The notes under the pieces: generated by a model
What the model saw: the letters and a program-made list of their open reading frames with translations, nothing else
Database searches by the model: none
Told to the model about the DNA's origin: nothing
Program-made: the position numbers and the translations under genes
NCBI RefSeq assembly: GCF_008365315.1
Contig: NZ_CP043508.1
Location: 1 to 64,000 of the forward strand
DNA length: 64,000 nt
Source: Acetobacter vaccinii
Lineage (GTDB): Bacteria; Pseudomonadota; Alphaproteobacteria; Acetobacterales; Acetobacteraceae
Direction: 5' to 3'
Shown here: positions 1 through 34,715 of the stretch, one piece after another
How the letters are laid out: each line of letters opens with the position of its first letter
Position numbering within the stretch: position 1 is the stretch's first letter

Positions 1-1923
1 CCCGCCACCGGCGACTGGTTTCTGGGCTGGGATGACAACACCGGCCAGCAGCTCTGGCTGAGCAACGACGACATGGCCATGCACACCATCCTGCCCGGTT
101 CAACCGGCTGGGGGAAAAGCCAGACCATTTACAGCCTGCTGTGCAATGCCCTCGCCCAGGGCAGCGGCTGCATGATCGTGGACGGCAAAGGCTCGAACAA
201 CCTCGTCTTCTCCGTCAAGATGATGGCCCGGCGCTGGGGGCGCGAGGCTGATGTGCGCGTCATCAACATGCTGGTCTCCAGCGGGGACCGCAAAAGCCAC
301 ACCTGGGGCGCGTTCTCGGGCGTCAATCCCGAAGGGCTGAGTGAGCTGCTGCTCACCATCTTCCTGCCCGAGGACAAAAGCGGTGGGGGTGGCAGTGCGT
401 CGTATTTCCGCGACAGGGCGGACTCCCTCATCCGCGCCATGAGTTATGTCTGGGTCTGGATGCGCGATCATGCGGGCATCCCCATTACATCGGAGAGCAT
501 CCGCGCCAGCCTCTCCACCATCCAGGCGCTCATTGATCTGGTGGGCACACGCTCAGATCCATCGGAAAAGCGTGTGTTCAGCTATTACGATCTCGCCAGC
601 CAGCGCCTCATGACAATGCCGCTGCCCGAGGCCTTCCCGCTGTCTCTGCTCGACCCCGTTCGCGACTACGTCAATGAAACCGGCGGGTTTTCCAGTGGCA
701 AGGGGGGTGTGGACAGTCAGGACAAGGTGCGCGAACAGCACTCCTATGTCGTGGGTGGCTTTGCCAGAGCCTTTACCCAGATGGGCTCGACACTGGGGCA
801 TATCTTCCGCTGCGGCCTGCCCGGTGTCGATTTCCACGATATTTTCTACAACCGCCGCATTCTGGTGGTGGTTCTGCCCTCCCTCGAAAACCATCCCGAG
901 ACCAATGCCTCACTGGGCCGCATGACCATTACCGCCCAGCGGTACGCGCTTGCCCCCGCACTGGGGACATCCCTTGAGGGTGACTATGTCGATCTGGTCG
1001 TCAACCGGCCGTCCTCCGCCCCGACGGTCTATCCGATCGTCCATGACGAAGTCGGGATGTTCCTCACCCGTGGGCTGGATGTGATGATGGCCCAGGCGCG
1101 TGAACTCAATGTCGGCATCACGATTTCTTTCCAGGAGGTCGGGACCATGTATGCCGCCCTGGGCAAGGATCGGGTGGTCCCCCTGCTGGGCAATCCCAAA
1201 CTCAAGATCTTCGGGCAGATCGAAGATTCCGCCCCCACCAAGGAGTGGCTGGAAAGCACGGGCGGCACGATGCAGGTCAGCGTCCTGCCCGGCTATGAAA
1301 GCTCGCCCACCCTTGGGGTTTACAGCGGGGTGGACCGGGCCGATATCCGCGAGGTCAAGCGGATTTCGTGGAGTGATGTGCAGTCGCTGCGCAACGGGCA
1401 GGCCATTATCCTGTTCCGGGGAAAGCGGATCTACACGCGGCTGTTCTATGCGGGGATCAAACCTGCGGGCTACAACCGGCTGCATCCTCTGCTGACGCTG
1501 CATACCGTGCCTGCCGGTCGGGATCATCCCATTGCCCGGGCCATCCGGGGCGGGCAGGATATTCCCGGACGGGCCGCCCACCTGGCACCGGCCGCATCCC
1601 TTGAGGTCATCCACGACAGGATGGCGCGGATTGTTGATACGGATGCGACCGTGCGTGAGGATATCCATGCGCTGTTTGGCGCAGAGCTACCGCGTGCGGA
1701 CACACAGCCTTTTGCAGCCCTGTTCCAGAGCCTGGGCGCCTATACCAGCCCGAAGACAGACCTGCCGGTGACGATGCTGGCCCCCAAAGGCAACGTGGCG
1801 CTCTATGAGGCCATGGTCGCACTGGAGGCCCTCAACTGTGATGCTCAGGGGCAGACCCGCAGCCGTGTGGCCAGCGTCCTCAATACGCTGGCCCGCACGA
1901 CTGTCAGACGGAAAGGGCAATAA
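1..1923 (+). CDS. Type IV coupling ATPase, IcmO/DotL/TrbC-like (5' truncated by window)
   Basis: The reading frame is open from base 1, so the gene begins outside the window; 640 codons are visible. A Walker A motif (GSTGWGKS) lies at about nt 97-120, and a Walker B-like segment (YPIVHDEVGMF) at about nt 1030-1062, followed by QARELNVGITISFQE as in VirD4/TraD-type coupling proteins. The text just before Walker A (DWFLGWD, then a W-L-S-N-D-D segment) resembles IcmO/DotL and IncI TrbC proteins. Such ATPases sit at the inner membrane and pass the relaxosome to the type IV secretion channel. The N-terminal membrane part would be upstream. The next small gene starts 3 nt after the stop, so they are probably co-transcribed. 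The IcmO rather than TraG assignment is by recall, moderately sure. Confidence 0.85.
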   Translation, partial: PATGDWFLGWDDNTGQQLWLSNDDMAMHTILPGSTGWGKSQTIYSLLCNALAQGSGCMIVDGKGSNNLVFSVKMMARRWGREADVRVINMLVSSGDRKSHTWGAFSGVNPEGLSELLLTIFLPEDKSGGGGSASYFRDRADSLIRAMSYVWVWMRDHAGIPITSESIRASLSTIQALIDLVGTRSDPSEKRVFSYYDLASQRLMTMPLPEAFPLSLLDPVRDYVNETGGFSSGKGGVDSQDKVREQHSYVVGGFARAFTQMGSTLGHIFRCGLPGVDFHDIFYNRRILVVVLPSLENHPETNASLGRMTITAQRYALAPALGTSLEGDYVDLVVNRPSSAPTVYPIVHDEVGMFLTRGLDVMMAQARELNVGITISFQEVGTMYAALGKDRVVPLLGNPKLKIFGQIEDSAPTKEWLESTGGTMQVSVLPGYESSPTLGVYSGVDRADIREVKRISWSDVQSLRNGQAIILFRGKRIYTRLFYAGIKPAGYNRLHPLLTLHTVPAGRDHPIARAIRGGQDIPGRAAHLAPAASLEVIHDRMARIVDTDATVREDIHALFGAELPRADTQPFAALFQSLGAYTSPKTDLPVTMLAPKGNVALYEAMVALEALNCDAQGQTRSRVASVLNTLARTTVRRKGQ

Positions 1924-3646: not shown

Positions 3647-4009
3647 TCTCGATTTCAGTCCAACCAGGACGACCGTGAGAGGAAGTTCGAAAACGTACGA
3701 TAAGCGGCACCGTATCCAAGACGTTGATTTTAAGACCAGTTACGTGACCAGTTTTCGTCTATCTTTGGGTCATCTTGTCGTAGTCACATAAACGCTCGTT
3801 AAAGTGACAACCAGCGGGGAAGATGGCTGTCTTCCACTGCTTTCCTTACCATGCATTTTCTTGGATTACCTTTCCAAACTGCTTCTCACAGCTCCCCAAC
3901 CTTGGCCATGCCCGCTCCGTCATCGAGAGCGGTCCCATCAGAATTATGAATAAAATTTAATTTATTCATCCTATCAACCGTAACGCGCAACTGATATCCC
4001 GCCGTTAAT
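3647..4009. other. Intergenic stretch, no gene seen
   Basis: About 360 nt between the toxin and the TonB receptor control region. No reading frame with coding character was seen on either strand. It becomes AT-rich towards 3940-3970, which may hold the receptor promoter. Confidence 0.5.
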
Positions 4010-9213: not shown

Positions 9214-9593
9214 AGGTTCTGCTTGATACGCATGCGTTGCTGTGGTGGCTTTCGGACTCCGACCGGCTGGGTGAGACTGCACGGGAAATCATCGCAGACC
9301 CGGTTCACGATATTCTGGTGAGTATCGTGTCACTCTGGGAGATTGCGATCAAAATCCGTATCGGAAAGCTGGATGCGGATATGAACGATATTCTGGCAGC
9401 CATTCCTGAAGAAGGTTTCTCTCTATTACAAATACAGCCCGAACACCTGCAGATCCTTATGTCTTTGCCTCTGCATCATCGTGATCCGTTTGACCATCTC
9501 CTTATGGCGCAGGCGCAAGCTGAACACGCCACATTTCTTTCGGAAGACGGACAAATGGATCATTACCCCATCAAGAGAATACGCTGTTCGTGA
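9210..9593 (+). CDS. PIN-domain toxin (VapC family)
   Basis: A 127-residue PIN-domain ribonuclease. Acidic metal-binding residues are in place: Asp6 (LLDTHALLWW), Glu44 (SLWEIAIK), the Asp pair of RDPFDHLLMAQA near residue 95, and the acidic end of FLSEDGQ. The DTHALLWWL start and SLWEIAIKIRIGKL are typical of the VapC subgroup paired with Phd-like antitoxins. It should cleave RNA when the partner antitoxin is lost. Confidence 0.9.
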   Translation: MKVLLDTHALLWWLSDSDRLGETAREIIADPVHDILVSIVSLWEIAIKIRIGKLDADMNDILAAIPEEGFSLLQIQPEHLQILMSLPLHHRDPFDHLLMAQAQAEHATFLSEDGQMDHYPIKRIRCS

Positions 9594-9596
9594 AGC

Positions 9597-9642
9597 AGAA
9601 ACTGCCGTCAGAACAGCCCTCATTTCGGACATTCATACATCA
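9597..9642. repeat. Partial tail of the palindromic repeat family
   Basis: The stretch with CAGCCCTCATTTCGGACATT matches the tail of repeat P3 (GTCGCCCTCATGTCGGTCAT). No stem-loop is kept. It lies just after the PIN toxin gene. Confidence 0.35.
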
Positions 9643-9739
9643 ACTATCAACCTAAAATGATCATTTATCGTCTTTTATCAACCGTCTCCTTGAGTTATGT
9701 GTGATATAATTCCATATTACTTAAATAATTTTTTATTGG

Positions 9740-17151: not shown

Positions 17152-17411
17152 AGGTTCCCAGATCGCCCATGTCTCGTCCGTAAAAGTGCCTGTTCCGTCT
17201 CCTTCTTCCTTCCCTACAATATGGGAAGAATTTCAAGTTCTAACAGACCCTACACTTACGGCAGCTTCGCGATCCATGATTTCAAAATCTGCATAAAATA
17301 TAATGATATATGCAGAATATTCACAAAAAGAAAAATGCGGTGGATGTTTCCACATTGCTAATTTACAATTATTCTTATTCATATCTTTTTGTGAAATGGA
17401 AGGCCAATACA

Positions 17412-19552: not shown

Positions 19553-20821
19553 ATGACGATCTCGAAAAGTCGAATAGATAAAGCAGGTCGAAATCTGGCA
19601 TATCCGGCAGAGTTAACTATCGAATCGATGGCGCTTGAAGAAGATTTCGATGATTACCGAATTTCTCACCTTGAACCTCTTTCAAGTATTACATTAGAGA
19701 TCCAAGGTTGGCTTCATGACTACGGAGGAGGCTATTACATAGCTCAAAGGGTTAAGCGTAAGCCACAGATCATACGAAAATTGCGTAGACTAAGTGTTCG
19801 CCTCACACAGCTTCAGGATATTGGAGGCTGTCGCATAATCGTTGAGAAAAATGAGAGTGTAGACCGCCTGATCGACTTCATCAAAAAGAATGTAAAGAAC
19901 AATGCGTCATTCGAATTGAAGCGTGTAACAGATTACCGAGTGCAAGGCCGCGATCTAACAGGCTATCGCTCTGCGCACCTTCTTTTGCAGCGTGATGGTC
20001 GTTCTATTGAACTTCAGATTCGGAGTCGGATACAGCATTACTGGTCTGAATCAATAGAAAGAACATCAGTAATTTACGGAAAACACTTAAAGGAGCAAGA
20101 AGGCAACCCTGTAGTTATTAACTACTTCAAGCATCTTTCTGATATTTTCTATGAAATCGAAAGTGGGCGTGACCCAAGCGTTCAAGATAAAGTTAAACTG
20201 GATCAAATGCGCGAGCAGGCACAGACCATTATCTATGATGCTGATCGCAACCGTATATTCGACAGTAATATCAATGAAGATATAGTGCGGACTCTTGCAG
20301 CTACGCAGGGGTACGAAGGCAATCTAACGAACTGGATTATGGTATTTAACTGGAACTCTGGTGAATTTGTAACCTGGGATGTTGTTGGTCGAAACGCTGA
20401 AAGTGCTAAAGAAAAATACACTCATTATGAAAATCAGTTTAGTTCCGATTTGGGGTTTGAGGTCGTTATGATTGGAGCCTCCGATATTGCTACAATTCGA
20501 CAGACTCACAGCCATTATTTCGGAATAGAAAAATTTGATGATATTCTTGAAAATCTTGATCAATCTATAATTGGATTTAAGACAAGGATGGATATTGACG
20601 TGGGTGCACGGAAAATACTGGAACTTTTAGTAAGAAAGAAGTATTGGGGTCGAAAAAGTATCTCCGAAGGAACTTTGAAAAATCATTTTACAAGAAGTGT
20701 AAATACATTTGATACATCAATAAATACGCTGCGCGACTTAGGTCTTCTTACAGTTGGTGAGCAATATGCAACTATATCGCTCAATTTGAAAAAAAAATCT
20801 GAGATCGAACGCTATCTTTAA
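19553..20821 (+). CDS. RelA/SpoT-domain protein with C-terminal extension
   Basis: A 422-residue protein with a ribosome site (GGAGGA) 6 nt before its ATG. Residues about 60-170 form a RelA/SpoT nucleotidyltransferase domain: KRKPQIIRKLRRL, LQDIGGCRIIV, and GYRSAHLLLQRDGRSIELQI followed by RSRIQHYWSE. No HD hydrolase domain is present. The C-terminal 200 residues hold an alpha/beta segment (NWIMVFNWNSGEFVTWDVVG) and a helix-rich end (TLKNHFTRSVNTFDTSINTL, then LGLLTVGEQY) that looks like a winged helix. Small alarmone synthetase toxins (toxSAS, CapRel) share this kind of domain and can pyrophosphorylate tRNA or make (p)ppApp. Toxin or defence function is inferred from context; there is no separate antitoxin gene. 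Confidence 0.75.
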   Translation: MTISKSRIDKAGRNLAYPAELTIESMALEEDFDDYRISHLEPLSSITLEIQGWLHDYGGGYYIAQRVKRKPQIIRKLRRLSVRLTQLQDIGGCRIIVEKNESVDRLIDFIKKNVKNNASFELKRVTDYRVQGRDLTGYRSAHLLLQRDGRSIELQIRSRIQHYWSESIERTSVIYGKHLKEQEGNPVVINYFKHLSDIFYEIESGRDPSVQDKVKLDQMREQAQTIIYDADRNRIFDSNINEDIVRTLAATQGYEGNLTNWIMVFNWNSGEFVTWDVVGRNAESAKEKYTHYENQFSSDLGFEVVMIGASDIATIRQTHSHYFGIEKFDDILENLDQSIIGFKTRMDIDVGARKILELLVRKKYWGRKSISEGTLKNHFTRSVNTFDTSINTLRDLGLLTVGEQYATISLNLKKKSEIERYL

Positions 20822-20916: not shown

Positions 20917-22440
20917 GATAGTGTTGAAAAACTCATGGTGAAGAGTGAAAGTGTTGCCAAGCCACTTCGACATAAGTGCAGCTTTCTTGCCTCAGGTGGA
21001 TAAGGCAGGCGCTCCGGGAGGTATCAGTTTCGCCATTTTGCGGAGATTTTGAGCAGCTGCGGCGAGATGGAACTCATCACGGGCACCGTTTGGTCCTCTG
21101 AGCCTCAACCGATCGATCTTCAAAATGCGCTTGAGGTGAGCAAACAGCATTTCAACCTTCTTTCGTTCTCGTCTGGAGATAATATAGGCGTCGGTTAAAG
21201 CAATGTCGCGGGCCATATCACGAGCGCCTTCATGAATAGAGCGCAGAACCTTACGATTGGGCTGATTGGGGCAGCATTTTGGTTTGAGAGTGCATACGTC
21301 GCACGCCAGTTTCGACGAACGGTATCGAAGTAGGTTGTCGGGAGGGGCATTTGGTTGATCCGAGTTGATCTTGCGCCACTGCTGCTTCAGTTGCTGTCCT
21401 CCAGGACAGATGTAAAGATCGTGCACGTGGTCATATGTGAAATCTCGACGTTCGAAAGTCCCGTCCTGCCGGGCAGATTTGTCGAAGACCGGAATGTGAG
21501 GTTCGATGCCACGCTCATGAACCAGCCACGCAAGATTTTCAGCGGATCCATAAGCTGTATCCGCCGCAAGCCTTTCGGGCCATATTCCAAATGTTTCCTG
21601 CGTACGCTCTATCATTCGGCGTTGCGCCGTAACCTCGGCCTGCCGGATGGCTGTCGTGGTTTCTACATCCATGATGACAGCCGATTTAAGGTCGATGAGG
21701 TAATTTGTGCAGTAGGCATAATAAGCAAGGCCACCGCTTGCAGCGTTCCAACGTGCCGCAGGATCGACCGGAGAGATATATTTTGGTTGCACGGGCGTAG
21801 CAGACCCAAATGCAGCATCGTCCAGCACCGAGAAATACTCCCGCACAGCACGTTGGGCTGCCTCGATCGGCAGTTTATCTGGGCCCGGAACACTACGCTG
21901 CCGATTAGCGTCAGCCTTGATCGTGCTGGCATCGACCGCAAAGCCTTCACCGCCCACCAGTCCCTTGGCGATACACTGCCGGACGGTCATTTCGAACATT
22001 TGGCGAAGCAGATCACTCTCCCGGAAGCGTCCGTGCCGGTTTTTCGAGAATGTCGAATGATCAGGCACAGGGCCGTTGAGACCAAGGCCACAGAACCACC
22101 GGTAGGCCAGGTTAAGATGGACTTCTTCACATAGCCGTCGCTCGGATCGAATACCCATCACGTAGCCAACGATTAACATCCTGATGATCAGCTCGGGATC
22201 GATTGAAGGCCGTCCCGTGCCGCTGTAAAATGGACGAAGATGCTCACGCAGGCCGTCCAGATCGACAAAGCGATCAATTGAACGCAAAAGATGGCCAGCT
22301 GGCACATGGTCTTCAAGACGGAACTCGTAGAACAGTGCCTCCTGTATTTTCGTTCGATCACCCATCATTTGCAGGTTCCTCCTGCGAAGAGTGAATCAGT
22401 GCTTCACTCTCAAAGCAAGCGCGACTTTTTCAACACTATC
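20917..22440 (-). mobile_element. IS1182-family insertion sequence, copy 2
   Basis: The same 1,524-bp element as copy 1, with GATAGTGTTGAAAAA ends. It sits inside a run of C, with at least a CCCC duplication on both sides (20913-20916 and 22441-22444). It splits palindromic repeat P4. Confidence 0.95.
20992..22368 (-). CDS. IS1182-family transposase, copy 2
   Basis: 458 residues, the same protein as copy 1, with intact DDE motifs (see the entry at 6571-7947). Confidence 0.93.
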   Translation of the reverse strand: MMGDRTKIQEALFYEFRLEDHVPAGHLLRSIDRFVDLDGLREHLRPFYSGTGRPSIDPELIIRMLIVGYVMGIRSERRLCEEVHLNLAYRWFCGLGLNGPVPDHSTFSKNRHGRFRESDLLRQMFEMTVRQCIAKGLVGGEGFAVDASTIKADANRQRSVPGPDKLPIEAAQRAVREYFSVLDDAAFGSATPVQPKYISPVDPAARWNAASGGLAYYAYCTNYLIDLKSAVIMDVETTTAIRQAEVTAQRRMIERTQETFGIWPERLAADTAYGSAENLAWLVHERGIEPHIPVFDKSARQDGTFERRDFTYDHVHDLYICPGGQQLKQQWRKINSDQPNAPPDNLLRYRSSKLACDVCTLKPKCCPNQPNRKVLRSIHEGARDMARDIALTDAYIISRRERKKVEMLFAHLKRILKIDRLRLRGPNGARDEFHLAAAAQNLRKMAKLIPPGAPALST

Positions 22441-22711: not shown

Positions 22712-24355
22712 TCAGTAATTATACTGTTCAAGCGTCTGTTTGGCGGTCAAGAAGAGCGTGCGGTCCTCCCTGAGCGCGGTATTCTCTTGACTAATTTCCT
22801 TCAGACGGACACGGACATTAGTCTCGAGCACTTCAAATGCCTGCTGGGCCTGCTGGGAAATCCATAGCATGGCATCCTGCCTGTATTTTGAGAGGAAATC
22901 GTCTGCGGCATCGGCTATGGCACGCGCTTGGCGCTCTGCCTCCCGACGCGCTTTCAGTTCATTATGAATGGCCATCCCAAAACCGATAACGGTAGAAATT
23001 ACCGTCAATGCCGGTCCAAGGAATTTGCCATATTTGGCTGCGACGGCGCCAAGCCTGACCGCGCCCTTCATATGATAAAGGGGCTTGAGAACCGACCCGA
23101 CACTGGTTTTTGACACGTCCTTGCCAAACATGAGAACAGATTTCAAAAGAGTTGTCGACTGCTCGGCAGGAAGTGCCGATAACCCTGAGCTAAGGTTTTG
23201 GCCGAGTTCAGCGAAATGCTTTCCAAACACACTGCTTTTCTGCTCATCTCCTGTTTCAAGGTTGATGTTGGTTTGGGAAATTTTCGACTTGATGAGTTCG
23301 GCCAGTTTTTCGACGTCAGCGTCAAGGCCACGGTATTCTTCCGCGATTTGTGCCTCCATATGAGACCACAAATCCTGTTCCATGCCATCCGCGATTTCCG
23401 TCAGGTCGCTTTCCGGCACGTTTGGGTCACCTATCTTATTGCGGCAGTAGGCCAAAACTCTGGGGCGGGAGGAGCCAATAATGGTGTCGAGACGTGCTCG
23501 CGCCTTCACAAGCACTCTTTCCCTGCTTTTGCGAACTGTCCGGTCAAGCTCATCGACACAACGGCTCTCATCATTCCCCGCTCTTTCCTCCAAAACCGCA
23601 GAGGCCTTATCGACCAGGTCAAGAACGTCTCTTGCAGCGGAGCGGCAGACAACCGAATAATCACAGTCCTCAAGGAACTGAAAGAGCTTGCGCTCCAACT
23701 CATCAAGACCACTATTTCTGACTAGGGCCGATTTGTTTTCCATTCGCCCCTTCAGAGCAGAACGTGCATTTACAACGCAGAGATCGACCTGATCGAGAAT
23801 ATTTTTTATGCCTGCCGTCCCAGCGGAATTTTGGAGATGGGCCCGCGCGCTATCAATGACGACCACATACTCCTCGCCGTCACGCTCGAGGGACATCTTG
23901 TCGTTAATGACGAGCAGAAGACGGCGGCCGCGACGCAGTATGTCGATGAGAGCATTCCATGTTTCCCCCTCTGCCGCGACACCACCGGCAGCAACGATAA
24001 AAAGGATGACATCGCTCCTGTTGAGGGAGCTTTCGGTAACTGCCTCATGCTCGATAGGGGCATCAATGCCGGGCGTATCGAGCAACGTATATCCTCGCCA
24101 GTCATACCCTTTAATCTCGGCCGTCTCCGGCCTGTCGGCCATGGCGGCCTGCTCCGAACCAAGCAGCGCGTTGAGCAATGTGCTCTTGCCCGCGTTATAG
24201 ACGCCATAGACCATGATACGCGGTCGATCCGTCTCAGCCCGGGCTCGCAGGGCAGATGCCATTTCAGCACTCGCATTTTGGCCAAGCCAGCGGTCTATGA
24301 CCGGAGACACCGTGTTGAATGTCTCGTTAATGGGTGCGAAATCAGGCAGCAACAT
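22712..24355 (-). CDS. Dynamin-like GTPase, second gene of pair
   Basis: A 547-residue GTPase: G1 is GVYNAGKST (residues 51-59), G3 is LLDTPGID (Asp93), and LLLVINDKMS (N151-D152-K153) stands at the G4 position. The rest is helical, with a small hydrophobic segment (LGPALTVISTVIGFGMAIH) near residue 450 that may be a membrane paddle. It overlaps the upstream GTPase gene by 14 nt, so the pair is one operon. Paired dynamin-like GTPases resemble the LeoA/LeoBC (Eleos) defence genes and bacterial dynamin pairs. The link to defence is inference from architecture and island context. Confidence 0.8.
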   Translation of the reverse strand: MLLPDFAPINETFNTVSPVIDRWLGQNASAEMASALRARAETDRPRIMVYGVYNAGKSTLLNALLGSEQAAMADRPETAEIKGYDWRGYTLLDTPGIDAPIEHEAVTESSLNRSDVILFIVAAGGVAAEGETWNALIDILRRGRRLLLVINDKMSLERDGEEYVVVIDSARAHLQNSAGTAGIKNILDQVDLCVVNARSALKGRMENKSALVRNSGLDELERKLFQFLEDCDYSVVCRSAARDVLDLVDKASAVLEERAGNDESRCVDELDRTVRKSRERVLVKARARLDTIIGSSRPRVLAYCRNKIGDPNVPESDLTEIADGMEQDLWSHMEAQIAEEYRGLDADVEKLAELIKSKISQTNINLETGDEQKSSVFGKHFAELGQNLSSGLSALPAEQSTTLLKSVLMFGKDVSKTSVGSVLKPLYHMKGAVRLGAVAAKYGKFLGPALTVISTVIGFGMAIHNELKARREAERQARAIADAADDFLSKYRQDAMLWISQQAQQAFEVLETNVRVRLKEISQENTALREDRTLFLTAKQTLEQYNY

Positions 24356-26219
24356 GGTTTAATTCCTCTTCTAGGTTCTCAATTATTGTGTTGAATGCCT
24401 TCTTGTATTTTTCTGTCACGACACAAAGCTCATTAACGCACTGAATAGTATTCGGTGAAACCCAGTCGTTTACCCACTTTTCGATTGGTCCAGACACTTC
24501 TGTCATCCAGACCTCGAACAGTCTGTTCGCATTAGCGGCAACAACGGCACGGTTATCTCCTATCAGGACTTTCGTTTCGCTCTCGCCATCAAACAGACTT
24601 CCCCCAATAGCACCGACGAAAGAGCCAACCGCGCCGCCTATCATCGCCCCGATGGGCCCTCCCATCAAACCGATAGCGCCTCCAATTGCCGTTCCTGCAG
24701 TCGAACCTACGCCTTTTCCCATAGAACTTTCACGCATAGTCGTAGAATAGATATTCTCGTATTCAGGAATACTCTTCATACTTGAGCACATAAATTTTGT
24801 CTTAATTGGGTCTGTAAGGCCAAATTTATTTGCCACAATTGTCCAGAAAAAGTTCGTAGAAGATGTTCTGTGTTTTTTTAATATAGCATGAAAGGCTTCG
24901 TTTTTTTTCTCTGCAGCCATTTCTTGAGTGCTAGCGCAAATTGCATCCGTTTTCATCGAAGCTATTTCGTGAGCAGCATTCCGGCAGTATTCCCCCAATT
25001 TCTTTTTGAATGACACGATATCTTTCGAGAAGGCCTCGTTCACTGCATCAATTTTGACAAAGGTTGCCATCATCTCTTTCATGCAGTCTCTAATATCACG
25101 CAGCGATGTCACCATGCGTGCGCACTCACCTTGGGCCTCCAATATCTGACCCATGGTTGTGAAGAAGTTTTGCATGCCACTCTGGTACCATAACGTCTCC
25201 GGAGAGCCTTTTCTTTCACACGCAAACCGTGCAGAAACAGACACTACCGAGAATTCATAGAGACCAACCTCTTGGGGTTCGAAACCACTTTCGATGAAAG
25301 CACGCAGACCCTCACACTGTTCCTGCCTCACAGAATCAGATTTCATAGTCAGGGTACGGATGATATTCCCATCAGCGTCTTCATCTTCGTCCATCGTATC
25401 AGAGGCTGTTATAACCAATAAAAGTGGCTTGCCACTGCGTAGGAATGACAAAATTTTGGTCCTGTCGGACTCACGTTGGGGGCTGCTGGAATTCAGCGTA
25501 TAAATGATGAGATCGGAAGCATCGACATACTGATAGGCTAAATCCCCATTGGAAGCGTTCACGGAATCAACACCTGGTGTATCTACCCAAGTGAAACCCG
25601 GAAGGCTGAAGCCCTGAATGGAAGATGTGGTCTCGGCAATGCCGATACCAAATGCCCTTTGTCTCGCCATGATTTCAGGGGACATCTTTTCATTCAGGCC
25701 GCTGCTTGTCTCGTAAAAGAAGGTTGGCTGCGGCGAAACGCTTTTGATGGCGTGGGCGTCCGGTGAGATGGCCTCATAGGCGACAAAGTTTCCTAGGGAT
25801 GACTTGCCAGCCTTGACCTTACCAAAGACGCAAGCCATGCGGCCTTGTCCATATTTCAACGAGAAGTGGTTTCGGCGTTGATATTCCTCAATTTTACTGA
25901 CTATATTTTTATGATAGGAAGTAATAGCTGAAACCCATGTTTTACGTTCATTGTATAGGGCGGGTAGGCCCATCTCTTCCAGACCATCGTCACTGTCTAA
26001 TTTCGCCTTTCGGGCCGCGACAACAGATCGGACCTGATTTTCCATTGTATGAGTTGCCTGGTCGATGTGTCCAAAAACCTCGTCCAAGTCTTTCTTCATC
26101 TGGTAAAGCGCGTGTTCTGCTCTAGCAATGTTTTTATTGCGACTCTCGCTCTCCAATGCTGAAACAAAGTTCAGAAAATCATTACGGCTTTTAAATTTTT
26201 GGCAACTAAGAGGAATCAT
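24342..26219 (-). CDS. Dynamin-like GTPase, first gene of pair
   Basis: A 625-residue GTPase. An N-terminal helical region of about 125 residues, partly coiled coil, precedes G1 FGKVKAGKSS (residues 132-141) and G3 WVDTPGVDS (Asp213). A G4-like LLLVITASDTMD follows. Near residues 505-550 there is a Gly-rich hydrophobic stretch (GTAIGGAIGLMGGPIGAMIG and onward), a glycine-zipper type that can insert in or deform membranes. The downstream GTPase overlaps it by 14 nt. It lies beside the mobilisation backbone and starts at an AT-rich spacer. Membrane remodelling on phage attack is the likely role by analogy with Eleos; untested here. Confidence 0.8.
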   Translation of the reverse strand: MIPLSCQKFKSRNDFLNFVSALESESRNKNIARAEHALYQMKKDLDEVFGHIDQATHTMENQVRSVVAARKAKLDSDDGLEEMGLPALYNERKTWVSAITSYHKNIVSKIEEYQRRNHFSLKYGQGRMACVFGKVKAGKSSLGNFVAYEAISPDAHAIKSVSPQPTFFYETSSGLNEKMSPEIMARQRAFGIGIAETTSSIQGFSLPGFTWVDTPGVDSVNASNGDLAYQYVDASDLIIYTLNSSSPQRESDRTKILSFLRSGKPLLLVITASDTMDEDEDADGNIIRTLTMKSDSVRQEQCEGLRAFIESGFEPQEVGLYEFSVVSVSARFACERKGSPETLWYQSGMQNFFTTMGQILEAQGECARMVTSLRDIRDCMKEMMATFVKIDAVNEAFSKDIVSFKKKLGEYCRNAAHEIASMKTDAICASTQEMAAEKKNEAFHAILKKHRTSSTNFFWTIVANKFGLTDPIKTKFMCSSMKSIPEYENIYSTTMRESSMGKGVGSTAGTAIGGAIGLMGGPIGAMIGGAVGSFVGAIGGSLFDGESETKVLIGDNRAVVAANANRLFEVWMTEVSGPIEKWVNDWVSPNTIQCVNELCVVTEKYKKAFNTIIENLEEELNHVAA

Positions 26220-27844: not shown

Positions 27845-30800
27845 TTAGTGTCCCGGCGTGGCCGAGGGGGTGGGCCGGTGGCTCCGCTCACGCTCAGTCT
27901 TCACCCGCGCCGCTTCGCGCTGCGCCTCTGCCTCCCGGCGGCGGAGCGCCTCATCAACCTGCCTGTTGATCCGCTCCGCAATGTTCTGGGTCTCATAAGC
28001 CCGCTTGCGCATGGTGCGGCTGATGTCATCCCAGCGCTCACCCGGAATGGCCCGTAGCCCCTGAGTCGCCTTACGGGCCCGCCACGCTCCACCGGGAGAC
28101 TGCCCCGCCTGCGTCATGGCCTCCACCGTGTGGCTCTGCCTGATCCAGCGTTCGGTCTGCGCCTCAAAAGCCAGCCGCCGCTTCATCAGGTCAATCCCGA
28201 CCGTCTTGTAGGGATGCCTGCCCAGGTCAGCGGCAATCCGGGTCAGAAGGTCCTCCTGTGTCACCGGGGTCGTATCCCCCAGAGGGCGCGAGAACTGCTC
28301 GGCCTCACGCACGGGAGCCTCCGCAATCCGGGTCCAGCAGGTCTGCACATGGCGGCTTTCCGCCACATAGGCGGTAAAGCCCGTCATGGCCGCAGTCCCC
28401 CGGGGCATGGCGTTGATATGCTCATCCGAGGTGATCCCCTGGGCTGCGTCAATGGTCATGGCATGACCGAAGCCCAGACGCGTGCGCCCGCTCTGCCGGT
28501 CCGCCAGCCGTTCCCAGGGCACGAACCCGTCCAGCCCCCGGCTGTTGGCCAGCCGCAGTCCCGCCGCATCCCACCCCGTCACCGACACGATATCCCCGTT
28601 GGAGCCCAGGTGCCGCCAGCGCAGTCCGTGCGGCGTACGCACCTGGGCCTGCACGCGGTCAAACAGACGCACCCGATCCCCAACCGACAGCGGCAGTTCA
28701 TAGGCTTCCCCACGCTGGTCCATCGCCGGGCGGAGGATCTCGGCCTCACCAATCTCGCCACGGGCCCGCAGGCGGCTGCGCACGGCCATGCTCAACGCCA
28801 TAACATCCTCATTGGTCGGGGCCGACATCGTAATCCCGCGCCGGGACCCCGCTGCGGCCAGCATGTCGCGCCGCCTGAGATAGAAATCCGCAATCTCATC
28901 GACCACCTGGCTGTGATCACCCCCGATCAGACGAAACGTCCCATCCCGGCTTTTCATGGCAATGGCTTCGCGCGCACGCTCGGCGTCCTTCTCGAGCTGC
29001 TCCGCCTCCGACAGTGCCGGATCGCGCCCCTGACTGCGGAACAGCCCCGCGATGGCCCGCCCCCGGGCCGAGGCCTGCCGGATGGTGGACAGTAGTTCGG
29101 GGGCTGCCTCGGCGGGCAGGACACGCCTGAGGATGGCCAGGCTGTCCCCGGCCTCAATCGCCTGCGCCTGTTCCCGATCTCCCAGAAGCCGCATGGAAAA
29201 CCCGATCGTCTCCTGCAGTTCCAGCAGCCGCAGCATCTGGCGGGGGCCGATCTGGCTGACCTCGTCCAGCACCAGCACGGTCTGACGGGTCAGCCCATGC
29301 TCGCCGGTCTCAATGTCATGCAGCAGCTTCGCCAGTGCAAAACTCTGGCTGATCCCCGTATCGCGCAGGGCATCAGCCTGCCGCCAGGCCATGGCGGCCC
29401 CGATGACCTGACGGCCCTCCTCTTTCCAGGCCGAGACCAGCGGTGCGAGCAGGGCCGTCTTGCCCGCCCCCGCAACACCGGTCAGAAAGCCCAGCCCCCC
29501 GGCCCGACCCATGGCGAAGATCGCCGCTTTCTGGGCCCGGCCATGGTCAGGCTCGCGCTCAAAGTCCAGGGAGGAAGCCGCAATGGCACGGGCAATCACC
29601 GCATCGTCCAGACTGCCCTCACGGGTCCGGGCCGCCAGCCCGGCCAGACGCCCCATCTCCGTCTCGACCCGGATCTGCTCGCTGGTCGTGACCTGTACCC
29701 GTCCCTGCGCCATTCCCTGCAGGAAATGCACCCGCTCGCCACGGATCTCGATCCCACGCTCCAGAATCATCTCGGCCACCCGGTCGATATCCTGTGGCCC
29801 ATCCAGACCCGTCGCAATCAGCCCGTGAGCCGCGTGCATCCGAAACGCATCCCGGTCGATCACCGCCTGGGTTTCAAACTCCTCGGCCAGAAGGCGCGAC
29901 GCAATGGCACAGGCCTGCTCGTAGCGCTGCCGGGGGTCCATGGGGGCTGTCGCCGCCCCATCCTCCAGAACGCTGTGGTGCGACCAGCCCAGAGCCCGGG
30001 CCTCCTCGCGCCAGATCTCGCGGTCATTGGTCCCGTCGTATTTCTTCGAACGATACGCCAGATTGGCCTGGTGCAGCACCTTGAACTTCTGCTCGGCCGA
30101 CAACGTATCCCAGTTCCCGCCCTGTCGTTTGACGAAGGCCTTGGCCTGCTGCTCCGCCTGTCGGCTGCGCTTGGAGAACGCCTCGCAGACATCACGGGGG
30201 ATGGCCTCAATGACGATGGCGCGGCCGCGCTCATCCGGCCGGACACGCACCCCCATACTGCGCAACTGCTGGCCCAGCTCGGCCTGGAAGTAGGCACCGA
30301 ACAGATGCGATGTCATCTTCGTCACCCGGGCCGTGTCCAGAGACCCCAGATGGCCGTCTTCCGTCGCAACGGCATTGAACACCGCATTATGGATATGGGC
30401 CTGTGGATCACCCGGCACGGGAATTTCCACCGAAGCGGTCGGCCCGTTGAGCCCATCCTGGATATGCATGGCCGGGCGGGCCGTATAATGCCGGAACGAC
30501 ACCCAGGCCACCTCCCCCGCCTCATGCTCCCCCTGACCGCCCTGCCCCCGGCGGGCCACGCCGATCTCGCGGCCAATCAGCGCCAGGGCACGGTCGTTGG
30601 CCTGCTGGATGGCGTGCCAGATCAGCGCCTGTTCGGCCGTAGTCGCGGCAAACTCGGCGGCCAGCGTCACGGACTTATCGGGGGAGGCCGTGAAGTCGAT
30701 CCCCGAGATGGTCCTGTTGGCATGCGCCCCCGGCCAGTCCGCCCCATCCGAGGCGCGCTTGCACTCGAACAGCCGGATCAGTTCCTCATCCGTGGGAGGC

Positions 30801-31027
30801 CGGGAGATGTCCAGCCCCAGGGCATCCGCGATCAGCGGCCCGATATCGGGTGCCCAGGACCCCTGGCCATCCCGGCCGGTGAAATAGCTGTTCAGACGCC
30901 CACCGGCCTCTGCGGTCTGGCTGGCCGTGTGGTCCCCGACCGGACCGGGCCTGAGCTGATGCTCCCGCATATAGGCGACCAGAAGCCTGCCCACGCCGTT
31001 GGCCGAGAGCTTGCGATAGGTAATCAT
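27845..31027 (-). CDS. MobF-family relaxase-helicase (TraA/TrwC-like)
   Basis: A 1,060-residue conjugative relaxase. The N-terminal TrwC domain starts MITYRKLSANGVGRLL, has ISGIDFTASPDKSVTLAAEF and the metal-binding region PQAHIHNAVFNAVATEDGHL (His motif III). An AAA/RecD-like helicase follows, with Walker A GFLTGVAGAGKTALL near residue 545, TVLVLDEVSQIGPRQML as Walker B, and the helicase end AMTIDAAQGITSD. It would nick oriT, stay covalently bound to the strand and unwind it. It starts in a 4-nt overlap with the small gene at 31024. The probable oriT lies about 130 nt beyond that gene. Confidence 0.93.
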   Translation of the reverse strand: MITYRKLSANGVGRLLVAYMREHQLRPGPVGDHTASQTAEAGGRLNSYFTGRDGQGSWAPDIGPLIADALGLDISRPPTDEELIRLFECKRASDGADWPGAHANRTISGIDFTASPDKSVTLAAEFAATTAEQALIWHAIQQANDRALALIGREIGVARRGQGGQGEHEAGEVAWVSFRHYTARPAMHIQDGLNGPTASVEIPVPGDPQAHIHNAVFNAVATEDGHLGSLDTARVTKMTSHLFGAYFQAELGQQLRSMGVRVRPDERGRAIVIEAIPRDVCEAFSKRSRQAEQQAKAFVKRQGGNWDTLSAEQKFKVLHQANLAYRSKKYDGTNDREIWREEARALGWSHHSVLEDGAATAPMDPRQRYEQACAIASRLLAEEFETQAVIDRDAFRMHAAHGLIATGLDGPQDIDRVAEMILERGIEIRGERVHFLQGMAQGRVQVTTSEQIRVETEMGRLAGLAARTREGSLDDAVIARAIAASSLDFEREPDHGRAQKAAIFAMGRAGGLGFLTGVAGAGKTALLAPLVSAWKEEGRQVIGAAMAWRQADALRDTGISQSFALAKLLHDIETGEHGLTRQTVLVLDEVSQIGPRQMLRLLELQETIGFSMRLLGDREQAQAIEAGDSLAILRRVLPAEAAPELLSTIRQASARGRAIAGLFRSQGRDPALSEAEQLEKDAERAREAIAMKSRDGTFRLIGGDHSQVVDEIADFYLRRRDMLAAAGSRRGITMSAPTNEDVMALSMAVRSRLRARGEIGEAEILRPAMDQRGEAYELPLSVGDRVRLFDRVQAQVRTPHGLRWRHLGSNGDIVSVTGWDAAGLRLANSRGLDGFVPWERLADRQSGRTRLGFGHAMTIDAAQGITSDEHINAMPRGTAAMTGFTAYVAESRHVQTCWTRIAEAPVREAEQFSRPLGDTTPVTQEDLLTRIAADLGRHPYKTVGIDLMKRRLAFEAQTERWIRQSHTVEAMTQAGQSPGGAWRARKATQGLRAIPGERWDDISRTMRKRAYETQNIAERINRQVDEALRRREAEAQREAARVKTERERSHRPTPSATPGH

Positions 31028-31305
31028 CCCTGGCGGTGCTCCTCAGGCGCGCACAGGCGGCCAAGGCTGGCCTCCACCCTCTGGAGCACCTCAGTCTGTT
31101 CGGCAACACACGCCGCCAGCTGCTGCAGGGCATCCGCGATCCGGTTGGCCTCATCGTCCTCGGCGGGCATCACCACCTCAAGGATCTTGTGCAGGAGATC
31201 GAGCGCCTGCTTCTGGCCGCTATCGAGCTGCGCCAGCCCCCTGGACAGCACGTTCGCAAGATCGGCGGATGACGCGGTTTTCTCTGTCGGCATTCCTCTG
31301 CTCAC
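31024..31305 (-). CDS. Small relaxosome-associated hypothetical protein
   Basis: A 93-residue helical protein (LANVLSRGLAQLDSGQKQAL, then IADALQQLAACVAEQTEVLQ) first in the relaxase operon and overlapping it by 4 nt. In R388 the same place holds trwA, a small oriT-binding protein, but no ribbon-helix-helix signature is evident here. The start may instead be the ATG at 31293. Function is inferred from position. Confidence 0.6.
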   Translation of the reverse strand: MSRGMPTEKTASSADLANVLSRGLAQLDSGQKQALDLLHKILEVVMPAEDDEANRIADALQQLAACVAEQTEVLQRVEASLGRLCAPEEHRQG

Positions 31306-31430
31306 TTCCTGAATGGATGAAAGTGACCAGTCTCAGCCAACCCGTTGTGGGTGCGAACAACCCGGCCGCAGGCCGCGTCACAGCGTGACAGCGCTTCTCC
31401 GTCTTCCGGACAGCCTGTGCCCCCGCAGGG

Positions 31431-31460
31431 GGCGCACCCGCAAGGGTGCATTTGTATATG
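31431..31460. other. oriT: Probable origin of transfer (nic region)
   Basis: GCGCACCC-GCAA-GGGTGC followed by ATTTGTATATGG has the same plan as the R388 nic region (hairpin GCGCACC-GAAA-GGTGC followed by GTATTG/TCTATAG). The hairpin arms are 31434-31439 and 31444-31449, and a nick would be expected near 31454/31455. It sits between the relaxase operon and a divergent operon, as in R388. Recognised by comparison from memory. Confidence 0.65.
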
Positions 31461-31626
31461 GTCTTTTCTTAAAACCTGTCCCGCTTCTGTCTTCTGTCTA
31501 TCGCGAAGCGAGGGCGAAGCCGAGGCGGAGCCATGCCAAAGTTGACTCGCAAAAGCGACAGGGGTAGCAAGAGCAAAGACCGGCACCACCGCCGTCTGCG
31601 GGCCTGAGAGAGGGGGAGGAGTGACA

Positions 31627-32541
31627 ATGAGCGCAACCACGGTCCCCGATATCGGACAGTTCCTCGACCTTGTCGGCGGAGCCTGGGAACACTCCGCTCT
31701 GTTCCGCTTTCTGCGTGAGCACCATGACGCCATTCTGGAGCGTCAGAATGGCGAACGGATGAACTGGCGGGCTCTGTGTGCGTATTTCGGGCAGTGTGGT
31801 CTGACGAACGTTAAGGGCGAAGCCCCCAGCATCTCCTGTGCCCGCAAGACATGGTACCGTGTGCGCCGGAGCTTCAGCCTGCTGCGCGCACGCCGTGACG
31901 CAGAGACGGCAGAACGCGAGGCCCAGCGCGAGCAGGCCAGGATCGACGCTCTGGCCCGCAAACAGGCGCAGGCGGCAGAAAAAGCGGATATCCGCCAGAA
32001 AATGGCGCAGGCCGAGCAGGAATTTCAGGCCCGGCAACTGGCTCAGGCCAGACGAAACAGCCCCTCGGTGCTGTATCCCCAGGGCTATGAGACACCCGCA
32101 CCACTGGCGCAGACGTTTGCTCCGGCTGTGGCGAGCGTAGCTGCGGCGCCCGTCGTGCCCCAGGACAACACCACAGATGATGACCAGCCACGCGTGCGTA
32201 TCGGAGAAGTCGCGCATTTCGTGCAGATGAAGACCCAGGCCCCGCGCTACGGTCATGAGCGTGACATTCCGCTGCCTCCGCCCTATGTCGGGCCGCGCCC
32301 GGCAGGGATGCCCGAAGACCTCCCGCTTGAAGCCCTGATGCCTCTGGATGCCAGCGGTCGCGATGAAAACGGGAATTATGATTTTCTACAGATGCCCGGT
32401 CAGCCCCGGCGGTCGTTCTACGACAACAAGAGGATCTGGGCGCTGGACTGTCTTCCCATGATCGAAGCTATCCCGCCTCGTGAACGCCCCCCTGCGCTAA
32501 AATCAATGCGTGTCTGGCTGACTATGGTTCTTGGACAGTAA
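31627..32541 (+). CDS. First gene of stb-like operon, predicted DNA-binding protein
   Basis: A 304-residue protein; ATG 31627 is chosen because GGAGGA ends 6 nt before it. Residues about 45-85 (MNWRALCAYFGQCGLTNVKG, then CARKTWYRVRRSF) look like a small DNA-binding domain. A long charged helix (RARRDAETAEREAQREQARI onward) gives a coiled coil to about residue 145, followed by a Pro-rich linker and an unrecognised C-terminal part. It diverges from the relaxase operon across oriT, where R388 has stbA, although StbA is much smaller. It may bind the intergenic region and help plasmid positioning. Confidence 0.65.
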   Translation: MSATTVPDIGQFLDLVGGAWEHSALFRFLREHHDAILERQNGERMNWRALCAYFGQCGLTNVKGEAPSISCARKTWYRVRRSFSLLRARRDAETAEREAQREQARIDALARKQAQAAEKADIRQKMAQAEQEFQARQLAQARRNSPSVLYPQGYETPAPLAQTFAPAVASVAAAPVVPQDNTTDDDQPRVRIGEVAHFVQMKTQAPRYGHERDIPLPPPYVGPRPAGMPEDLPLEALMPLDASGRDENGNYDFLQMPGQPRRSFYDNKRIWALDCLPMIEAIPPRERPPALKSMRVWLTMVLGQ

Positions 32542-32627
32542 TCCGACGGGCAAGAACCGCACCCACAACAGCCTTCCTTACACTTGGCCTCGTCGCAACA
32601 GAGCGACTGTTCTGAGTGTAAGGATTT

Positions 32628-33443
32628 TTGATGACAGCCAAGACGAACACCTCTGGAACTGTTCCCGCTGACACAGCGGCGACGACGCCAGACCTCTCTC
32701 CCCGCGCCCTGGTCAAAGCCGGGCGTGGCAATCTGGGTGGCACAACCGCTCTGGCAATCCTCAGTGAAATTGCCCTGCATGACGGGCGCAGGGTGCTGAT
32801 GGCCGATGGTGATGTCCGCAATCCGGGTATTTCACAGTTCAAGGCGATTTATGGGAAACGGGGGTTTCCTCGCCCTGACAGCGAAGACATTGCCCATCTC
32901 AAGGAATGGTACACGAACGCCTTCGCCGCAGCCCTGCAGAATGAGGCGTCACTGGTCATGGATGTGGGCGGTGGTGACCGGACACTTGAAGAATGGGCAT
33001 CGGAAGACAGCCTTGTCGATGCAGCCGATGCCATGGGTCTGCCGGTAACAGGTCTGTTCATGTGTGGGCCACAGGCGGGTGATATCGACTATCTGCTCAA
33101 GCTTTGGAAAACAGGGCTGTTTCTGCCACATCGTGGCGTTATCATTCTCAACGACTGGAGCATTCCGGTCGGTCACAAGCCCGATACGCTCTTTACTCCT
33201 TTGTGCATGGATCAGCGTCTGACCACTGTCAGCGGCATGGAAACAGCCATCCTGCGCATTCCCAAGCTGAGCTGCATGAACGAGGTGCTCGCCAGCGGCC
33301 TGACGTTCCATGATGCGGCCGAGGGTAAGGCAGGGGCCTCGGGCCGTCCTCTGGACCCGATGCGCCGTTGGCAGGTCGGAAACTGGATCAGCAAGATCCG
33401 TGAAAACATTGCCAATGAAGGCATTGAAGCGTGGCTGCCATGA
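32628..33443 (+). CDS. ParA/StbB-like ATPase-fold protein with degenerate P-loop
   Basis: A 271-residue protein with deviant-Walker ParA features: GRGNLGGTTALAILSEIALH at the P-loop place, VLMADGDVRNPG like the switch I region, and SLVMDVGGGDRT like Walker B. The P-loop lacks the usual Lys residues (GGTT for GKST), so nucleotide hydrolysis is doubtful. R388 StbB, which governs conjugation versus stability, is a ParA-like protein in the same position. A second Met start lies one codon in. The stop overlaps the next gene by 4 nt. Confidence 0.7.
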   Translation: MMTAKTNTSGTVPADTAATTPDLSPRALVKAGRGNLGGTTALAILSEIALHDGRRVLMADGDVRNPGISQFKAIYGKRGFPRPDSEDIAHLKEWYTNAFAAALQNEASLVMDVGGGDRTLEEWASEDSLVDAADAMGLPVTGLFMCGPQAGDIDYLLKLWKTGLFLPHRGVIILNDWSIPVGHKPDTLFTPLCMDQRLTTVSGMETAILRIPKLSCMNEVLASGLTFHDAAEGKAGASGRPLDPMRRWQVGNWISKIRENIANEGIEAWLP

Positions 33444-34171
33444 GCGGCCTCAACACGCCCCCCGTCTCAGGCGGGGGGAACCTCCCCCGGCCTGAGAGTG
33501 AATCCTCCTACGCGGCGCTGCGTGCGGCGGGTCAGGAACTCATGGAGATTGCGCTTCAGGAAGGGATTGATAGCCACGCCCCGCTTGGCCACTGGATCAG
33601 AACCCTCAAGGGGGCGATGGATGCGCAGGCACTGCTCTGTCTTGCTGTCTCACGCGAAACCCGTGAGGCCAACACAGTGGCCGATAGCAGTCTCGCGGCC
33701 CGTACGAAGGATCTCGAAACCCGTGAACAGGTCATGCAGGATCTGACTGCGCAGTTGACGCAGAGTTTTGAGGCGGTCCGCACTCTGCATCTCTCGACGG
33801 AAAACCGGATCACGGAGCATGAACGCAGGCTGGACGATCAGTATGCGCGGATGGTGGACAAGAGTGTCACCTCGGTGATGAAGGATCTGAAAGAGCAGGT
33901 CTTTGACGCACTGCGCCAGCGGCTGCCTCTTCAGGAGGGTGCGTTCTACTACATGGCGCGCTGGCACTTTTTCATGAAGCTGACGCTGGGCATCCTGTTT
34001 TTTGTTCTGCTGGGGTCTGGCCTGACGGCCGTCGCGGGCTGGCATGCGTATTCGCGTGGCGTTTACTGTTTTGGACACACGTTGCGCAATGAGCAGGGGC
34101 AGGCGTGGTGTGCGCTGGATCCGCTGTTCAATCACACAGCGGAGCGGACGGAGACGGACCAGGAGAAATAG
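33440..34171 (+). CDS. Coiled-coil membrane protein, third gene of stb-like operon
   Basis: A 243-residue protein; ATG 33440 overlaps the previous stop (ATGA) and is preferred to GTG 33431. Residues 70-160 are charged helix (TKDLETREQVMQDLTAQLTQ onward), then one membrane helix (FFMKLTLGILFFVLLGSGLT) near residue 180 and a short Cys-containing tail, probably periplasmic. It is translationally coupled to the ParA-like gene and could anchor a nucleoprotein complex to the membrane. Its place matches R388 stbC, but similarity is not shown. Confidence 0.7.
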   Translation: MSGLNTPPVSGGGNLPRPESESSYAALRAAGQELMEIALQEGIDSHAPLGHWIRTLKGAMDAQALLCLAVSRETREANTVADSSLAARTKDLETREQVMQDLTAQLTQSFEAVRTLHLSTENRITEHERRLDDQYARMVDKSVTSVMKDLKEQVFDALRQRLPLQEGAFYYMARWHFFMKLTLGILFFVLLGSGLTAVAGWHAYSRGVYCFGHTLRNEQGQAWCALDPLFNHTAERTETDQEK

Positions 34172-34433
34172 GGCGTCGCAGCTGTCCGCGCGTTATCCAT
34201 GCAATCCAGCCCGCCAGGGCCGGAGCGCTTTGCGCGGAGCAGATTATCCCCCGGATAAGCGCGCCCCAGAGCGCAGGCGTTCCGGGGGATAACCTGTGGC
34301 TGGCCGGGGCAACACAGAGCCAGCGCACACCTGCCCGAGCCCCCCGGTGCAGCCCGCGAGAAAATGCCCTCATCTCAACTTTCAAGCCTCTGCCGCGTTC
34401 GTGGCCGAAGGCGCAACAGAACAAGAAAACAAC
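34172..34433. other. Intergenic region with inverted repeat
   Basis: About 260 nt. The arms TTATCCCCCGG (34244-34254) and CCGGGGGATAA (34282-34292) form an 11-bp inverted repeat with a 27-nt loop. TTATCCATG at about 34191 resembles a DnaA box. It may be a terminator of the stb-like operon or part of a replication region; nothing decides between these. Confidence 0.4.
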
Positions 34434-34715
34434 ATGCCTGAAAAACCCTGTCTCACCCTCAGCCCACCTGCGCAGACCCAGACGGCCTGTGAACGGCTGT
34501 TTGCCCTGCGACTGGACAATGACCCGCCGGGGCCATCGAAAATTGCCCTGAACCGGGCAGGCTGGCGCTACGACGCCAACCGGGGGGAATGGCGCAGCAC
34601 CTGCAATGCACTGCCTCTGGAACTGGAAGTCTATCGTCCCCGGATCACGGCACGCGCCCCATTCCATTCGCAAGAGACTGAACAGGTGGCCTGCTCTGCA
34701 TCGGGTGTGGGGTGA
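34434..34715 (+). CDS. Small hypothetical protein
   Basis: A 93-residue protein; the ATG at 34434 gives a compact product, while the frame could also start upstream at 34296. The core CERLFALRLDNDPPGPSKIA followed by LNRAGWRYDANRGEWRS looks like a folded small domain. No family is recognised and the ribosome site is weak. Confidence 0.45.
   Translation: MPEKPCLTLSPPAQTQTACERLFALRLDNDPPGPSKIALNRAGWRYDANRGEWRSTCNALPLELEVYRPRITARAPFHSQETEQVACSASGVG

Follow-up and report, generated by a model that had tools for sequence, protein, structure and literature searches.

In the 64,000-bp stretch of Acetobacter vaccinii DNA analyzed here (contig NZ_CP043508.1 of assembly GCF_008365315.1, positions 1 to 64,000; herein referred to as the window), positions 31419-31461 are very probably the nicking region of an origin of transfer (oriT) of the MOBF type. 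This region lies between a relaxase operon and a divergent operon of three genes, herein referred to as A, B, and C, which by analogy with plasmid R388 probably hold the plasmid in place. The reading that we consider likely, with good confidence, is a MOBF oriT nicking region joined to a stb-like positioning system, A-B-C, with 11-bp-phased repeats. Many plasmids of acetic acid bacteria have the same arrangement of oriT and operon. The features of the locus are listed below; the starts of A, B, and C were reset to the in-frame ATG common to relatives.

27845..31027, minus strand: MobF relaxase-helicase of 1060 amino acids (aa), matching NF041492 and PF08751, with the HUH triad
31024..31305, minus strand: open reading frame (ORF) of 93 aa in the trwA position between MobF and oriT; a similar ORF lies upstream of MobF in several relatives
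31419..31433, plus strand: distal hairpin GCCCCC-GCA-GGGGGC, at the position of inverted repeat IR1 of R388
31434..31449, plus strand: proximal hairpin GCACCC-GCAA-GGGTGC, at the position of IR2 of R388
31450..31461, plus strand: nic core ATTTGTAT^ATGG, with the predicted nick at 31457^31458
31473..31549, plus strand: about seven imperfect repeats with an 11-bp period (lag-11 self-match), predicted binding sites of A
31627..32541, plus strand: gene A, 304 aa; StbA-like helix-turn-helix at residues ~18-85, long helix at 69-144, low-confidence stretch at 148-188, C-terminal module from 192
32631..33443, plus strand: gene B, 270 aa; ParA/MipZ fold with a lysine-free P-loop, GRGNLGGTT, at residues 31-39
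33440..34171, plus strand: gene C, 243 aa; a single hydrophobic stretch, and two Cys in a short C-terminal tail

The two hairpins are arranged head to tail and fill 31419-31449, with the nic core ATTTGTATATGG directly 3' of them. The sequence GCACCC-GCAA-GGGTGC-ATTTGTATATGG spans 31434-31461, and the distal hairpin abuts its 5' side. Over both strands of the window, there is a single occurrence of a perfect 6-bp stem (loop, 3-4 bases) followed by NNTNGTNT[AG]T. The R388-like plan of hairpin and nic, pointed out in a preliminary description of this DNA, was confirmed, and 31434-31461 aligned to the hairpin and nic of the R388 oriT (locus L007, NC_028464; GCACC-GAAA-GGTGC-GTATTGTCT^ATAG). The nick had been placed at ATTTG/TATATGG, which is probably three bases too early; alignment to TATTGTCT^ATAG of R388 gives the position listed above.

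The nic core was also aligned to those of sister lineages, read by eye: GCACC-AAC-GGTGC-AATGGTCT^ATGA in L097, the same stem with AATGGTGT^ATGA in L093, and GCACTGAGGGTGC-AATGGTGT^ATGA in L092 and L098. A Roseomonas locus, L112, has GCACC-TTA-GGTGC-AATGGTGT^ATGG. The motif T-N-G-T-N-T^A-T is common to the nic regions of the window, R388, these four sister loci, and L112; a third lineage (L089, L090, and L095) has TTGGTCT^GTAG (by eye). A scan for a hairpin plus nic in seven distant plasmid loci gave candidates in only two, L112 and L117. The distance from stem to nic is 8 nt in the window; in R388, it is 9 nt when the arms are taken as 5 bp, following PMC4176350, and 8 nt when the adjoining C-G pair is added to them. 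According to the same paper, a purine is required after nic, and the base after the predicted nic in the window is a purine. An inverted repeat beside nic, an R388-shaped core, and a purine after nic, by which PMC4176350 allows an R388-type MOBF oriT to be recognized, are all found in the window, and it shares with R388 two inverted repeats 5' of nic, a GNAA loop, the motif T-G-T-N-T^purine, a MOBF relaxase operon on one side, and a three-gene operon on the 3' side. No match was found in Rfam at gathering scores for 30900-34500, no promoter in a scan of 31280-31700, and no tRNA in the window. No published description of this oriT site was found in the open-licence literature, which was covered mostly at the level of listings.

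To follow the distribution of the site, one genome per species (84,980 species) was scanned with the pattern CCATATACAAATGCAN{9,13}TGC, and 61 loci matched. By title, 25 of these belong to Acetobacter, Gluconobacter, Komagataeibacter, Neokomagataea, or Asaia, and 36 are scattered across other groups; two of the 25, L028 and L067, lie at the ends of two contigs from a single assembly and may represent the same site. The nic core is part of the search pattern, so its own constancy is not an independent count. In 23 of the 25 loci of acetic acid bacteria, versus none of the 36 elsewhere, the core is immediately preceded on its 5' side by a perfectly paired stem (6 bp or longer, loop 3-5). The two misses, L050 and L058, have a common bulged stem, and among the 36, L031 has a shorter stem, 5 bp with a loop of 7 bases, and gave no match to MobF, A, B, or C. 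The stem covaries between plasmids by compensatory changes, with five types of arms: GCACCC/GGGTGC, GCACCCG/CGGGTGC, GCAAACG/CGTTTGC, GCAAACC/GGTTTGC, and GCAAACT/AGTTTGC. The distal hairpin is less constant than the proximal one, with arms of at least 4 bp in 17 of the 25 loci.

Among the same 25 loci, MobF was found on the left in 16 and A on the right in 21, and at least one of the two in 24 (exception, L050). These counts cover the fixed orientation only; in an unrestricted search, the MobF and A matches listed all had this orientation. Several of the misses are contig ends, MobF is absent from the leftward sequence of L058 and L084, which is longer than 2.5 kb, and in plasmid pGOX1 it is located about 17 kb from oriT. 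In a family-wide sample of 397 genomes, the exact pattern was found in 10, and a backward control pattern gave 0 in every row. The plan of oriT and relaxase operon is common to five genera.

The relaxase operon had been reported previously and is indeed present to the left of oriT, on the minus strand. MobF scored 180.3 bits against NF041492 (cut-off 100) and 165 bits against PF08751 (cut-off 25), and it is 31% identical to TrwC across 270 aligned columns. The three His and the Asp of the TrwC metal site are kept in all 14 MobF relatives and the first Tyr in 12 of the 14; the alignment of the remaining two is probably disturbed by long insertions at the N-terminus. With a TrwC/MobF profile above the curated cut-off and a His-hydrophobic-His motif with a third His, this protein belongs to the MOBF relaxases. 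The 93-aa ORF had no Pfam match above the cut-off. The oriT reading is strongly supported by the covarying hairpin, the nic-like core, the adjoining MobF with HUH residues, and the plan shared by the five genera. Insertions at about the same spot between the 93-aa ORF of the relaxase operon and oriT were observed in the sister plasmid C2 (44119-44847; see below) and in L001 from A. orientalis (9240-9838); the genes in the A. orientalis insertion are annotated as a death-on-curing toxin and its antidote.

Phased repeats were analyzed in 19 non-redundant loci (31 before collapsing), with R388 kept apart and p-values obtained by single-base shuffling. In the 150 bp 3' of the core in these related loci, self-match is strongest at an 11-base shift; the mean is 0.388 for lag 11 and 0.352 for lag 22, and it does not exceed 0.305 for any other lag of 5-30. 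The lag-11 p-value is below 0.05 in 18 of the 19 loci, two of them at 0.046 and 0.049; in L001, it is 0.077. In the window, the repeats between nic and gene A gave p = 0.015, which is weaker than in the relatives, and lag 6 was higher. Direct repeats with an 11-bp period upstream of the first gene, as in stbABC, are therefore present in 18 of the 19 loci and in the window. R388 itself has a lag-11 self-match of 0.41, and its stbDRs are described in PMC3098194 as 9-bp units with two-base spacing. The repeat unit varies by plasmid; L076, for example, has three tandem copies of AATGCTACACT and an altered fourth copy. In L089 and L090, which belong to a lineage whose B retains the lysine, a 12-bp repeat period was seen by eye between MobF and B.

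The product of gene A was described earlier as a DNA-binding candidate much larger than StbA. Its N-terminus weakly resembles the DNA-binding domain of StbA by two methods. The StbA domain match turned up only in a second look with VIA-align; a Foldseek search with A gave nothing at E 0.001, and the window's A had no match in Pfam at E 0.1, with scattered weak matches for single relatives. Matches of A to ribosomal L24 sequences in PDB look like an effect of helix composition and were set aside. The large size is accounted for by what A has beyond an StbA-like domain: a long helix and, as a distinct unit, the C-terminal module that pairs with B.

This division of A was followed in 21 loci having both A and B, from which near-copies were dropped by hand; in three of them, the B protein is short or truncated. 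Distances computed from A residues 1-85 (A-N) track those computed from the repeats (r = 0.72), distances for the part of A starting at residue 192 (A-Ct) track those for B (r = 0.87), and the two halves of A barely track each other (r = 0.16). The co-variation is similar with 20 loci and with 19 loci, further near-copies having been removed from the latter. Linkage was considered as a reason for the pairing of A-N with the repeats and was rejected: the 42-base spacer from the repeats to the start codon is nearer to A, yet it tracks A-N at only 0.27, the hairpins on the other side track the repeats at 0.17, and A-N still tracks the repeats at 0.69 given the spacer. This comparison is imperfect because both control stretches are short and noisy. 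Natural swaps were found as well. In Komagataeibacter melaceti, L074 and L084 are 100% identical in A-N and 95% in the repeats, versus 18% in A-Ct and 22% in B. Conversely, L082 (A. suratthaniensis) is 95% identical to L009 in both A-Ct and B, versus 32% in A-N and 36% in the repeats, and it shares 95% of A-N and 86% of the repeats with L013. Judged by its sequence, A looks like a two-part adaptor whose N-terminus goes with the repeats and whose C-terminus goes with B.

Gene B encodes a protein with the fold of the ParA/MinD/MipZ superfamily (ParA/MipZ/ParF). The previous prediction of a ParA-like ATPase fold holds in this respect, but the Walker A lysine is absent. Thus, the deviant Walker A motif with its catalytic lysine is not found in B, which differs from MipZ and ParF by glycine in place of this lysine and by arginine in place of the signature lysine. 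The Walker A lysine is needed by ParA motors. Glycine replaces it in 27 of 40 B homologues and in 27 of the 28 members of one clade. A single origin of this replacement was not retained, as the tree needs two changes, though one change is possible and is found in 20% of bootstrap trees. A Skermanella sequence with GRGFGGKS is placed inside the lysine-free clade, where the tree method warns of long branches meeting. In A. orientalis pAOF1, B is frame-broken (L001 11000-11897), and A and C are open. Profile comparison of B with StbB gave no match (probability 0.6%), and GRGNLGGTT corresponds to neither of the StbB motifs, KGGXXK[T/S] and SGXXGK[T/S]. With no profile match and the lysine lost, assignment of B to the StbB family is not supported.

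The start ATG of gene C overlaps the stop codon of B. The hydrophobic stretch of C has a mean of 2.18 in the window and of 1.3-2.3 in relatives; R388 StbC also has one such stretch, with a mean of 2.08. The two Cys of the tail are invariant in 13 aligned proteins. The earlier description of the third gene product as a membrane protein is borne out as a prediction from its sequence.

The divergent operon lies to the right of oriT, on the 3' side of nic, which is the place of stbABC in R388, as suggested before. Its reading as a stb-type operon holds in the sense of "works like": it has this place, the 11-bp period, a weak match of A to the DNA-binding fold of StbA, a ParA-like second protein, and one hydrophobic stretch in the third. 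It does not extend to membership of the StbB family. The differences from R388 are A, with 304 aa and a C-terminal module versus 141 aa for StbA, and B, with no P-loop lysine and no sequence match to StbB. In the related operons discussed in PMC3098194, including RP4 TraK/TraL, a DNA-binding protein and a ParA-like protein likewise lie in the leading region; their ParA-like proteins keep KGGXXK[T/S] or SGXXGK[T/S] according to that text, and the sequences compared here were those of R388 and close relatives. Relatives of R388-type StbA (43%) and StbB (76%) were found in P0048 and P0074, from a metagenome assembly named Acidiphilium, and both kinds of stb thus exist in Acetobacteraceae.

The repeats, the pairings of A-N with the repeats and of A-Ct with B, the state of the P-loop, and the gene order are results of the computational analysis; nicking, DNA binding, and positioning are inferred. 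By homology with R388, MobF would bind the 3' arm of the proximal hairpin and cut ATTTGTAT^ATGG, and the repeats and genes A, B, and C would consequently enter the recipient first. The N-terminal domain of A would read the repeats, its C-terminal module would recruit B as a ParA/MipZ-fold partner with the lysine lost from its P-loop, and C would be a probable membrane anchor. By analogy with R388, A bound to the repeats would act as a tether for the plasmid, and B, together with C in the membrane, would deliver the plasmid to the transfer apparatus, each of the three proteins presumably being needed. In this way, A-B-C would determine whether the plasmid lies on the nucleoid or at the membrane close to the transfer apparatus and would strike a balance between maintenance and transfer, as R388 does. 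In R388, StbA promotes stability and represses transfer, an effect opposed by StbB (PMC3098194). Because its P-loop is lysine-free, B may be speculated to act as a non-cycling clamp; alternatively, the residue could be supplied by another protein.

An ordinary partition system lying beside oriT by chance, with A as a ParB-like centromere binder and B as ParA, is unlikely. It would account for the ParA/MipZ/ParF fold of B, and a DNA-binding adaptor with phased repeats is the plan of par loci; however, the contig has its own RepB/ParB and ParA, B is devoid of the lysine needed by ParA motors, the operon stays beside oriT across genera, and a membrane protein as the third gene is unusual for par. 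Somewhat less probable still is an operon for fertility control or entry exclusion, expressed at an early stage in recipient cells, B being a switch protein and not a motor. The leading-region position, the lysine-free P-loop, and the conserved two-cysteine tail of C would suit such a function, but it leaves the phased repeats and the pairings of A-N with the repeats and of A-Ct with B unexplained.

As for the proximal hairpin, a rho-independent terminator or an operator in place of oriT is highly improbable. A terminator scan does flag 31434-31449, yet the flank ATTTGTATATGG has no T-run, and stem and loop vary while the flank stays (the core being in the search pattern). Moreover, the core is also found on plasmids without MobF, A, B, or C, and in sister lineages this position is taken by a different core with the same shape.

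The oriT with the stb-like operon is located on contig C3 (102,624 bp), of which the window is bases 1-64000; the genome has 3.08 Mb in three contigs. In keeping with the genus, stretches from same-genus genomes match named Acetobacter records at the oriT site (L009 and L044, A. suratthaniensis; L010 and L035, A. peroxydans). The sister plasmid C2 (165,009 bp) has a 94% copy of most of the oriT site and an operon identical to that of the window by 91.5% in A, 98.9% in B, and 91.9% in C. At the window start, one further transfer gene was found:

1..1923, plus strand: TrbC/DotL-like coupling protein, running off the window start; its missing start is matched by DNA at the other contig end

This protein is over the PF10412 cut-off and scored 234 bits against NF041447, below the cut-off of 800. 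C2 has genes for PilS, a shufflon PilV, a TraI of the type IV secretion system, and a DotM-like protein, all over Pfam cut-offs, and a DotB/TraJ-like ATPase adjoining its own coupling protein. Of C2 5000-24000, C3 retains the coupling protein and part of the ATPase region (L105 7251-12153) and does not retain L105 1-7250. The VirB4/VirD4-type families PF03135, PF02534, and PF19044 were not found in this genome. Plasmid pGOX1, with the same oriT site, is typed MOBF and mating pair formation type I (MPF_I) by PLSDB. Together with the gene content of C2 and C3, this typing makes a pairing of MOBF with a type IVB system likely, in contrast to R388 (IncW, MOBF11, MPF_T); the coupling protein also lies outside the relaxase operon here. 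Since C3 has only the coupling protein and an incomplete MPF_I (type IVB) neighbor, it is probably mobilized by C2, which has more of the MPF_I system.

Beside the relaxase operon, two dynamin-like GTPase genes were observed on the minus strand (22712-26219), with PADLOC matches to LeoA (3.9e-39) and LeoBC. A GmrSD-type restriction gene (9740-11470), a PtuA-like ATPase (17310-19211), and a RelA/SpoT-domain protein with a PDC-S33 match (19553-20821) form a cluster of possible defense genes. Three transposase genes of equal length and equal Pfam scores (6571-7947, 20992-22368, and 48456-49832) are probably three copies of one insertion sequence.

The core together with the repeats was also found on small relaxase-free plasmids, defined here by no tblastn match (E 1e-3) to MobF, the 93-aa ORF, A, B, or C. 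These are K. saccharivorans p3050 (3,050 bp), with one copy on each strand, G. oxydans pGOX4 (13,223 bp), which accompanies pGOX1 in strain 621H, and two plasmids of G. oxydans ATCC 9937, all typed non-mobilizable; the Asaia contig L050 likewise has no such match. The repeats gave p = 0.005 in the three G. oxydans copies, which resemble one another, 0.001 and 0.084 in the pair on p3050, and 0.005 in L050. The copies are located at L106 (cores 1900 (+) and 1413 (-)), L107 (~10563-10660), L108 (~3575-3670), L109 (~5656-5750), and L050 (~3671-3780), and in all five TAGCACTAGTGC upstream replaces the distal hairpin. A plasmid of Neokomagataea tanensis typed non-mobilizable (L111 6000-7386) has oriT, A, and a 60-aa piece of B, with no MobF in the 12 kb covered. 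A precedent for mobilization in trans is given by the staphylococcal oriT mimics described in PMC8136818. As with pWBG749, SmpO, and the oriT mimics in that account, relaxase-free plasmids carry copies of a conjugative-type oriT, with specificity given by an accessory protein; the host group and the accessory family are different, and the copies found here include the 11-bp repeat array.

A wider scenario, to which we give slightly less than an even chance, is that the positioning system has long had a ParA-fold protein without the P-loop lysine, predating the split of the MOBF lineages now in Acetobacteraceae and methylotrophic Hyphomicrobiales. B would be a non-hydrolysing clamp or use another catalytic residue, A would be a modular adaptor with its two ends exchanged between plasmids of one assembly, and the oriT-plus-repeat address would have been copied by small relaxase-free plasmids. 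The site gives a large set of plasmids from acetic acid bacteria, of which some are industrial, an oriT that can be tested, and it suggests that certain plasmids recorded as non-mobilizable do move. The operon offers a natural separation of the two contacts of an adaptor, repeat reading and partner binding, and raises directly the question of how a ParA-fold protein may work without its P-loop lysine.
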